In this document: in pieces, positions 33,993-48,627 of the stretch
How positions within the stretch are numbered: position 1 is the stretch's first letter
Layout of the letters: the number at the start of each line of letters is the position of its first letter
Assembly: GCA_013043705.1 (NCBI GenBank)
Contig: JABDNS010000086.1
Span: 1-48,627, forward strand
Source of the DNA: Pseudomonadales bacterium
Lineage (GTDB): Bacteria; Pseudomonadota; Gammaproteobacteria; Pseudomonadales; UBA7434
Direction of reading: 5' to 3'
DNA length: 48,627 bases
Translations under genes and position numbers: made by a program
Notes under the pieces: model-generated
Told to the model about the DNA's origin: nothing
What the model saw: the letters and a program-made list of their open reading frames with translations, nothing else
Databases searched by the model: none

Positions 33993-35219
33993 TTAAAAGT
34001 ATCTTGCCAATTCCAGCGCTAAGTAATCGTCTTCGCCGAGCTGCCCAAGCGGGTCTTGTGCATCAATATCGGCGGTGCCGCGCGCTTCCAGCGACAGCTT
34101 GTAGCTGTTGCCGAGTCGCCGGCTCGCCTCTACAAAGTAGAAGCTCGATTGATTGTCGAGGTCTTGCGCCCAGGCGGCAAGCAGTTCGGTAGAGTTAATG
34201 TCATTCAGGCCAAAGCGCAGCCCCAGCGCCAGGTCGTTGTTGGCGAAGGCCTGGTCGCGCTCATCAAATAAATATTCCGCCACGATACCAATATCGGTGC
34301 CACTGCCGCCTACATCAAAAAAACTGTATTCAATGCCGGCAACGCTGGCGAATATCCGCCCATCGCGATCTTCGCGGCTAATCGCTTCGAGTTTTAACAG
34401 CCAGGATTCAAAGGTGCCCTGCAGGTCGATAGCGCTTTGGTGAATGATGTTGTAAATGGGTAGCAGCTCGGCTTCGCCGCGCGCATTGAATTCAATTTTC
34501 GAAGGATTAAAAACCGGCTCCCGGCTAGTGCCATAAAAATGCGAAACGCCGACGTCCCACTCGCCCAGCACCTGTGACCACCTGGCGGCAAAGTCCCCAT
34601 GCCAGCGTTCGGCGCTGGACTCATAGACCGCGTTTTGGTTACTAACGCGCAAACCGGAACCCGGCCTGCCATTGCGTCCAGCGAAGGGTCGTTCGCGAAA
34701 GTAGGGCAGCGCAAAAAGATCGAGTGTGCCCCAATCGCGAATTAACGCCAGGTGCAGCATAGGCTGCCCCAGGTAATCTTCCTGGTCGATATTTTCTACC
34801 TGGTCGACCTGGTTGATGATGTTTACCAGGTGCAGGGTTTCGGTAACGCCCCAAAACACCGTGTCGACGCCTAGTGTCAACTCCCAGTCTCGCTCGACTT
34901 TATGCCACTTAAGCTCGCGGATATCGACATGGCTGCGCTCCGCATCGTTCTCATCGGCCCGCAGCAGCGCGGAAAATCGTAAGCTGTCTTTGCTATCGGC
35001 AAAGCGGTAATAAATTTCAGGTGATACAGACAGTGACGCGTTGCTGCGCGAAAGCTCCGGGCGTGCGCCGCTCTTTTCGAAGTAGCGCCCCTCAATTGCG
35101 AGGTTGCCTGAAATTTTTAGTTGCGCATCACCAGCATTCGCGAAAGCTGAAAAGCCCAGTAACAGTGTTAGCAGCGCAGCGCGCTTGCTATTGCCGCCCG
35201 GATAAAAGCGTTGCACCAC
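33993..35219 (-). CDS. Putative outer-membrane beta-barrel of the RND operon
   Basis: A 408-residue protein with signal peptide (AALLTLLLGFSAFANAG, cut near residue 29). The long barrel has repeated strands such as LKISGNLAIEGRYFEKSG, SVSPEIYYRFADSKD, WELTLGVDTVFWGVTETLHL and a final Phe (LALELARYF), the terminal-strand signature. The GVDTVFWGVTETLH motif is like that of DUF1302-type outer-membrane proteins placed beside RND transporters. The start is GTG 35219; the codon shares its G with the upstream TAG stop (TAGTG), a sign of translational coupling. It would provide the outer-membrane exit or entry for the transporter. Confidence 0.82.
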   Translation of the reverse strand: MVQRFYPGGNSKRAALLTLLLGFSAFANAGDAQLKISGNLAIEGRYFEKSGARPELSRSNASLSVSPEIYYRFADSKDSLRFSALLRADENDAERSHVDIRELKWHKVERDWELTLGVDTVFWGVTETLHLVNIINQVDQVENIDQEDYLGQPMLHLALIRDWGTLDLFALPYFRERPFAGRNGRPGSGLRVSNQNAVYESSAERWHGDFAARWSQVLGEWDVGVSHFYGTSREPVFNPSKIEFNARGEAELLPIYNIIHQSAIDLQGTFESWLLKLEAISREDRDGRIFASVAGIEYSFFDVGGSGTDIGIVAEYLFDERDQAFANNDLALGLRFGLNDINSTELLAAWAQDLDNQSSFYFVEASRRLGNSYKLSLEARGTADIDAQDPLGQLGEDDYLALELARYF

Positions 35220-46994: not shown

Positions 46995-48026
46995 CTACGC
47001 GAGTAGCCGTTCGAACACCCAGTAAGCGCCTATGATACCACTGACACTGGATGCTAATCGCGATATTCGCCATGCAACTCCCCGTTTGAAGTATTTGTTA
47101 ATCGCCCATAGCAGTGACATGATCACTGCGACGATACAAAGCTGGCCCAGTTCAACGCCTATATTAAAACCGAGCAGCGCGACCAGGGATTCACCCTGCG
47201 GCAAGCCAATTTCAGAAAGTGCACCGGCAAAGCCAAGGCCGTGCAGCAAGCCAAACATAAATGCTGCGATAATCGCGGGTCGCATGGAATTTACAGCCGG
47301 TTTTTTTTCTTTATTAGCGACTTCCGCAGCAAGTACCACAATAGACAGCGCGATGAGTACTTCAACCAAGCTGCGGTCTACTGTCACCCAACCCTGGGTC
47401 AGCAAGGCTAGCGTAAGTGAGTGCGCAACAGTGAATGTGGTAACGGTTTTAATTACGCCCCATGGTTGAAGCACCAGCAGCACCAGGCACAGTACAAACA
47501 AAATGTGATCGTAGCCCTCAAGAATATGTTCATAGCCAAGCAGTAAATAGGCCAATATAACGCTGTCGTGTTGTTGGGTGTTGGATAGCGAAATGGTGGG
47601 CGCGCTATTGGTAAGCCGATGGGTCTGGATCGGCCCGCCAAGAAATTGCACGCGCGCGATAACTTCAGAAAAACCTAGCGGCAGCTGCTGTATGCCCAGC
47701 GATTCGCCGTCCAGGCTCCCTTCGCAGCTGACTTGCCATGTTTTTGTATTCCTTAACCGTGAGCTATTGGGCTGGGTATAATTTTTCGGCCTTAGCCAGC
47801 TATCGGATTCGTTTAGCAAGGTACAGGCGGCGGGTATTTTGGGCGATGCGGGACGGTTTGCGCCCGATTGCACCGGCGCTTTCCAGCTTAGCTGCCAAAG
47901 CGTTGCGTCCTGCTGACTAAACTCCAAATACCCGGGTTGCAGCGTGTCGGCATAGCTATGATTACTGGTTACGGCGCCGGCCGTAACCAGCAACAGCAGG
48001 TAAACGCTAAAACGCAGCTGCGTCAC
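46995..48026 (-). CDS. HupE/UreJ family membrane protein
   Basis: A 343-residue protein with signal peptide (VYLLLLVTAGAVTSNHSYA, cut about residue 26), a periplasmic N-terminal domain of about 130 residues, then about six or seven membrane helices. The HupE-type metal signature appears in GYEHILEGYDHILFVLC (from residue 164), then FTVAHSLTLALLTQ and FGLLHGLGFAGALSEIGLP. HupE proteins transport nickel or cobalt in hydrogenase operons, but no hydrogenase genes are here. The start is GTG 48026, overlapping the upstream PPIase stop by four bases (GTGA), so the two were translated together. Confidence 0.85.
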   Translation of the reverse strand: MTQLRFSVYLLLLVTAGAVTSNHSYADTLQPGYLEFSQQDATLWQLSWKAPVQSGANRPASPKIPAACTLLNESDSWLRPKNYTQPNSSRLRNTKTWQVSCEGSLDGESLGIQQLPLGFSEVIARVQFLGGPIQTHRLTNSAPTISLSNTQQHDSVILAYLLLGYEHILEGYDHILFVLCLVLLVLQPWGVIKTVTTFTVAHSLTLALLTQGWVTVDRSLVEVLIALSIVVLAAEVANKEKKPAVNSMRPAIIAAFMFGLLHGLGFAGALSEIGLPQGESLVALLGFNIGVELGQLCIVAVIMSLLWAINKYFKRGVAWRISRLASSVSGIIGAYWVFERLLA

Positions 48027-48627
48027 GGCGTAGCCTCAATCACAATGCTGTACTTGTCTTTCAATGCCGCTAACGCATCGGCATTAATTTTTTCCAGCTC
48101 GCGCGCCTTCCAGTCGTTGAGCAACTGTTGGCGCGAACTTTCCAGGCTGGGCTTTGGCGCCGGCTTATGAGCGCGCACATACACCAGATGCTGGCCATAG
48201 CCGGAGCTGACCGGTCCGGCCCATCGATTAAGTGGCAGCTTTAGCAATTGTTCGCTAAAACCTGTGCCAAATGTCCGGTCTATTTGTTCTGTGGTTTGGT
48301 CACTGATGCGCCGGGGCAACATCGCGGATCGCGATTGCAGCGTTGTATCGCCACGCTGGAGTTGGCGCAATGCAACTTGCCAATCGCTGTCTGCTTTTAG
48401 CCAGACCTGGTCAAAGCCAAGACGATCGCCAAGCGCATATTTGCCGGGGTTGGCTTGCTAAATCGCGAGCAAGTCCTCGTCGCTTGCTTGTTTTGCTTCA
48501 AGCTGCGCGCGTACCAAAAAATCGACCTTTGAGTAAATTCGCTTGCGAATCACCGGGTCGTCTTGATCAAGCCCCAGCGCGAGGCCTTCGCGCACAAAAA
48601 TTTCTTCTTTTACGTGCTGTTCAATGA
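48023..48627 (-). pseudogene. Peptidyl-prolyl cis-trans isomerase (PpiC/SurA-like), interrupted by an amber codon and cut by the window edge
   Basis: Reading from the window edge, one frame gives EEIFVREGLALGLDQDDPVI, KRIYSKVDFLVRAQLEAKQA, then SDEDLLAI, a TAG codon (48460-48458), and continues QANPGKYALGDRLGFDQVWL, LNRWAGPVSSGYGQHLVYVR to TGA at 48023. Both sides match periplasmic PpiC/parvulin-type isomerases, which carry a Tyr or Phe where the stop lies (...FYxxNPxxY). The frame is otherwise intact, so one substitution has split the gene, or the base is a sequencing error. It lies directly upstream of the HupE/UreJ-like gene; the 3' part alone is 146 codons. Confidence 0.85.

Follow-up and report, generated by a model that had tools for sequence, protein, structure and literature searches.

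Why should a peptidyl-prolyl isomerase gene that is otherwise open be broken by a single amber codon? The question is raised by the right-hand end of the DNA analysed here (the window: 48,627 nucleotides, corresponding to contig C91 of a Pseudomonadales assembly, G000, which has 136 contigs, is 94.69% complete and 0.66% contaminated, and appears to be a metagenome bin).

The interrupted isomerase gene

The codon reads CTA on the plus strand of the window and TAG on the minus strand (Table 1). Before it, 55 open codons of the minus-strand frame reach back to the contig end; past it there are 144 open codons, with zero frameshifts and zero additional stops, up to the gene's own stop, a TGA at 48025-48023. 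Both sides belong to one protein, as a second copy of the gene, on contig C114 of the same assembly, aligns across the TAG at 89%. The initial annotation, which described an in-frame amber codon in a gene open on both sides of it, was thus correct, and so, from the TAG and the frame, was its statement that the allele as written would give a truncated product. For re-initiation past the TAG there are nine in-frame starts, the first two of which (TTG 48370 and ATG 48322) have no ribosome-binding site obvious to the eye. When the window was scanned for in-frame stops flanked on each side by 45 or more open, coding-like codons, nine were found, and by our reading of the list of open reading frames (ORFs) this TAG is the only one within a single gene: those at 33993 and 36593 are borders of neighbouring genes, and the other six lie opposite a longer ORF. 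The same scan found no other gene of the window interrupted in this way.

To what family does the gene belong? The 200-residue read-through product (with X at the stop, residue 56) matches Pfam Rotamase_2 (PF13145) at residues 48-163, scoring 28.4 bits, barely above the gathering score of 27; the piece downstream of the TAG scores 27.9 bits on its own. Clearer matches (50.6 to 59.9 bits) were given by all four of the homologues scanned. There was no NCBIfam match for the isomerase at E 0.001, and the 176 codons of the gene on C114 gave no Pfam match. Judged from the domain match, which exceeds the gathering score, the gene is a homologue of PpiC-type peptidyl-prolyl isomerases, as had been proposed. 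It shares its domain with the PpiC/parvulin-type isomerases (PF13145), and differs from them by the TAG near the domain start. The HupE-like gene described as coupled to it downstream is indeed intact.

Table 1. Features at the right-hand end of the window (contig C91)
Feature	Position	Strand	Remarks
Intact HupE/UreJ_2 membrane protein gene, 343 residues	46995..48026	-	GTG start overlaps isomerase TGA by 4 bases (GTGA)
PpiC-type isomerase gene (Rotamase_2), 3' part, ~200 of ~277 codons, truncated by contig end	48023..48627	-	
In-frame TAG inside isomerase gene	48458..48460	-	
60 bases around TAG with 15 of the 33 C91/C114 differences	48421..48480		
End-to-end overlap with contig C114 (C114:10211-10511), 301 bases, 33 differences, 89% identity	48327..48627		

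A second copy of the locus at another contig end

Contigs C91 and C114 both terminate inside their overlap, within the same isomerase gene. At the end of C114 the first 176 isomerase codons come after a complete DUF3604 gene, and C91 has the 3' part of the isomerase gene and HupE; the gene set DUF3604/isomerase/HupE is thus divided between G000:C114:8035-10509 and 46995-48627 of the window. At the codon where the window has TAG, C114 has TTG (Leu). This overlapping second copy at a contig end, the key fact, lay outside the view of the initial annotation, which was right in its observation and in the name that it gave to the gene, and whose interpretation is otherwise only partly supported.

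The differences between the two copies fall mainly on third codon positions (21, with eight on first and four on second positions). If the TAG codon is left out, 22 differences are silent and 10 change an amino acid over 98 codons (dN/dS 0.11); with 225.5 amino-acid-changing and 68.5 silent sites in the overlap, random errors would have fallen about 3:1 on the former. The rest of the overlap has therefore been under purifying selection, and from this pattern it is mostly true coding sequence, in a frame selected until recently. As silent sites account for most of the differences between the alleles, the stop, if real, would be recent. The differences are also clustered around the TAG (Table 1; permutation p 0.012).

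At its other end C91 shows a different kind of junction: window bases 1-127 are identical to C76:1-127 in reverse, an exact join of the kind left by de Bruijn assemblers with k=127. No exact join of this sort occurs at the right end, where there is only the 89% overlap. HupE is found in one place in the assembly, and beyond the overlap C114 gave just two matches to the rest of the assembly, both short and weak.

Homologues and the surrounding gene set

Which residue did the TAG replace? The column is present in all 25 aligned homologues (the C114 copy included) and is occupied by a sense residue in every one: Tyr in 12, Phe in six, Leu in four, Ile in two and His in one. Two named homologues carry Met there. 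The suggestion that an aromatic residue belongs at this place is therefore true of the majority (18/25), but the nearest copy, that of C114, has Leu, and the proposed origin of the TAG from TAC or TAT is correspondingly less well supported. Because the C114 copy, from this very assembly, reads TTG, a leucine codon appears the more likely predecessor.

Eleven of the 76 genomes searched, counting its own, are of the same genus; four of these (G003, G007, G008 and G009) gave matches, with identities of 26-36% in the aligned region, and a profile search gave a match in seven of the 11, so that by these scores none of the 11 has a near orthologue. Two homologues from a wider scan of contigs show 35 and 38% identity. 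Across the order, the profile search (390 genomes, again counting its own) gave a match in 189 genomes. Among the 150 matches listed, 148 lie outside G000, and nine of these were flagged for a stop; in eight the stop is the one that ends the gene, and at the position of the TAG none of the nine has any. The sole internal stop among these 148 is a TAA at another position, in G193, a case from which it seems that genes of this kind are sometimes lost. The G193 locus (L105/L115, G193:C1:797500-804500, the genome being listed as a single contig) has beside the isomerase gene a HupE that aligns only from residue 80, and the gene set there is perhaps in decay. A conserved in-frame TGA in the homologue group, which would have pointed to a possible selenoprotein, was considered and rejected, as eight of the nine flagged stops are at the last matched position and only that of G193 is internal.

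The neighbours of the isomerase gene recur with it. By tblastn on homologue loci with flanks of about 1.5 kb (short enough to limit the counts), a HupE homologue lies within that distance in 22 of 24 loci outside G000, and 13 of the same 24 have a DUF3604 homologue there; HupE was likewise found in 28 of 30 loci from the profile search (L071-L100, several of which overlap the earlier sets). The two named homologue loci both have DUF3604, isomerase and HupE in that order. The order varies elsewhere: HupE precedes and DUF3604 follows the isomerase gene in L008, HupE precedes it in L009, and DUF3604 is in the opposite orientation in L029. Many genomes of the order have the set of DUF3604, PpiC-type isomerase and HupE/UreJ_2, as do two metagenome-assembled genomes titled Sphingomonadales. 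In literature searched by paired terms, a scope to which papers on DUF3604 alone do not belong, we found no description of a joint role for the three. Given the gene order in relatives, the simplest view is that a single gene set has been split between C114 and C91.

Mutation, assembly fault or read-through?

We favour, at a probability of roughly 0.52, the reading that two strain alleles of a PpiC-type chaperone gene belonging to the DUF3604-isomerase-HupE set occur together, and that one substitution has made a nonsense codon, the TAG, in one of them; this figure and the gradings of the alternatives below are judgements, and were not computed. The sense codon TTG in the other copy of the locus supports this reading, and the low contamination of the assembly, which lends no support to mixed strains, goes against it. 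A consensus or assembly fault at the thinly covered tip of a dead-end contig, giving a TAG carried by no cell, is nearly as likely as a recent nonsense change. Contig ends often have the poorest coverage, and only 167 bases lie between the TAG and the right end of C91; that end lacks the exact join found at the other, the differences from C114 crowd around the TAG, where the consensus could be mixed, and no other gene of the window was found broken likewise. The overlap as a whole is nevertheless coding-like in its differences, which argues against this reading, although a mostly silent pattern is compatible with one wrong base. It is improbable, by contrast, that C91 and C114 are diverged paralogues in one genome, the window copy being a decaying duplicate: an assembly with two copies at 89% identity might suggest this, but each copy breaks off where the other carries on and has a different half of the gene set beside it, HupE occurs in one place, and the assembly offers no comparable second location for the remainder of C114.

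Least probable of all is translation of the TAG as an amino acid, through recoding, a suppressor tRNA or programmed read-through. The frame is intact past the stop, its downstream part still matches Rotamase_2 unaided, and the base after the TAG is C, which makes a leaky stop context. Against this, release factor RF1 (prfA) is present, above its cut-off; TAG terminates 22 of the 44 window ORFs of 100 amino acids or more; and a tRNA with a CUA anticodon is absent from the 32 tRNA matches (31 typed by ARAGORN and the last by eye), in an assembly whose 94.69% completeness leaves room for a missing tRNA. Nor is an in-frame TAG conserved in the homologues, C114 and the aligned relatives having sense codons and the stop-flagged matches having their stops elsewhere. 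The suppressor tRNA or recoded TAG that the initial annotation proposed looking for was thus not found in these data, and we reject amber recoding on the tRNAs, RF1 and the use of TAG as a terminator. The tRNA match read by eye from its alignment (C51:213-275, L066, 49.6 bits; Val-GAC) is absent from the ARAGORN report. A real, maintained and leakily read amber, with one strain making mostly a short N-terminal fragment, a little full-length chaperone and less of the coupled HupE, is similarly very hard to credit.

How would a strain-level nonsense allele have come about, and what might it do? We infer that the copies represent two strain alleles and that the TAG base is real; most likely it would then have arisen recently, by a nonsense mutation of one base in one of the strains. 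Assembly would have broken inside the isomerase gene because the alleles differ by 11%, leaving the Leu allele at the end of C114 and the TAG allele at the end of C91. The isomerase of the TAG strain would be cut short after some 132 of its roughly 277 residues (the 5' part being taken from C114), and the truncated product would keep the hydrophobic, probably membrane-anchoring N-terminus and lose nearly all of the Rotamase_2 domain. HupE would probably be made less efficiently, through loss of the translational coupling suggested by the overlap of its GTG with the isomerase stop.

Nonsense alleles and early pseudogenes are ordinary in bacterial populations, and the present case resembles them in its single in-frame stop, its otherwise intact and selected frame and its sister copy with a sense codon; it differs in being known solely from the assembled sequence of a contig end. 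Metagenome assemblies break contigs at strain variation, and the ending of two contigs in an 89% overlap within one gene is similar, except that the metagenomic origin is here only presumed. Most likely, then, the TAG is an ordinary case of an already known kind, a strain-level mutation or an assembly fault, and not a new genetic code.

By itself the TAG matters little. It does advise caution: before a gene broken close to the end of a contig is called a pseudogene or recoded, it should be compared with the remaining contig ends of its assembly. If leaky read-through were true after all, two strains would differ in expression of the gene set by one base. More generally, the case highlights the recurring set of DUF3604, PpiC-type isomerase and HupE/UreJ_2 genes.
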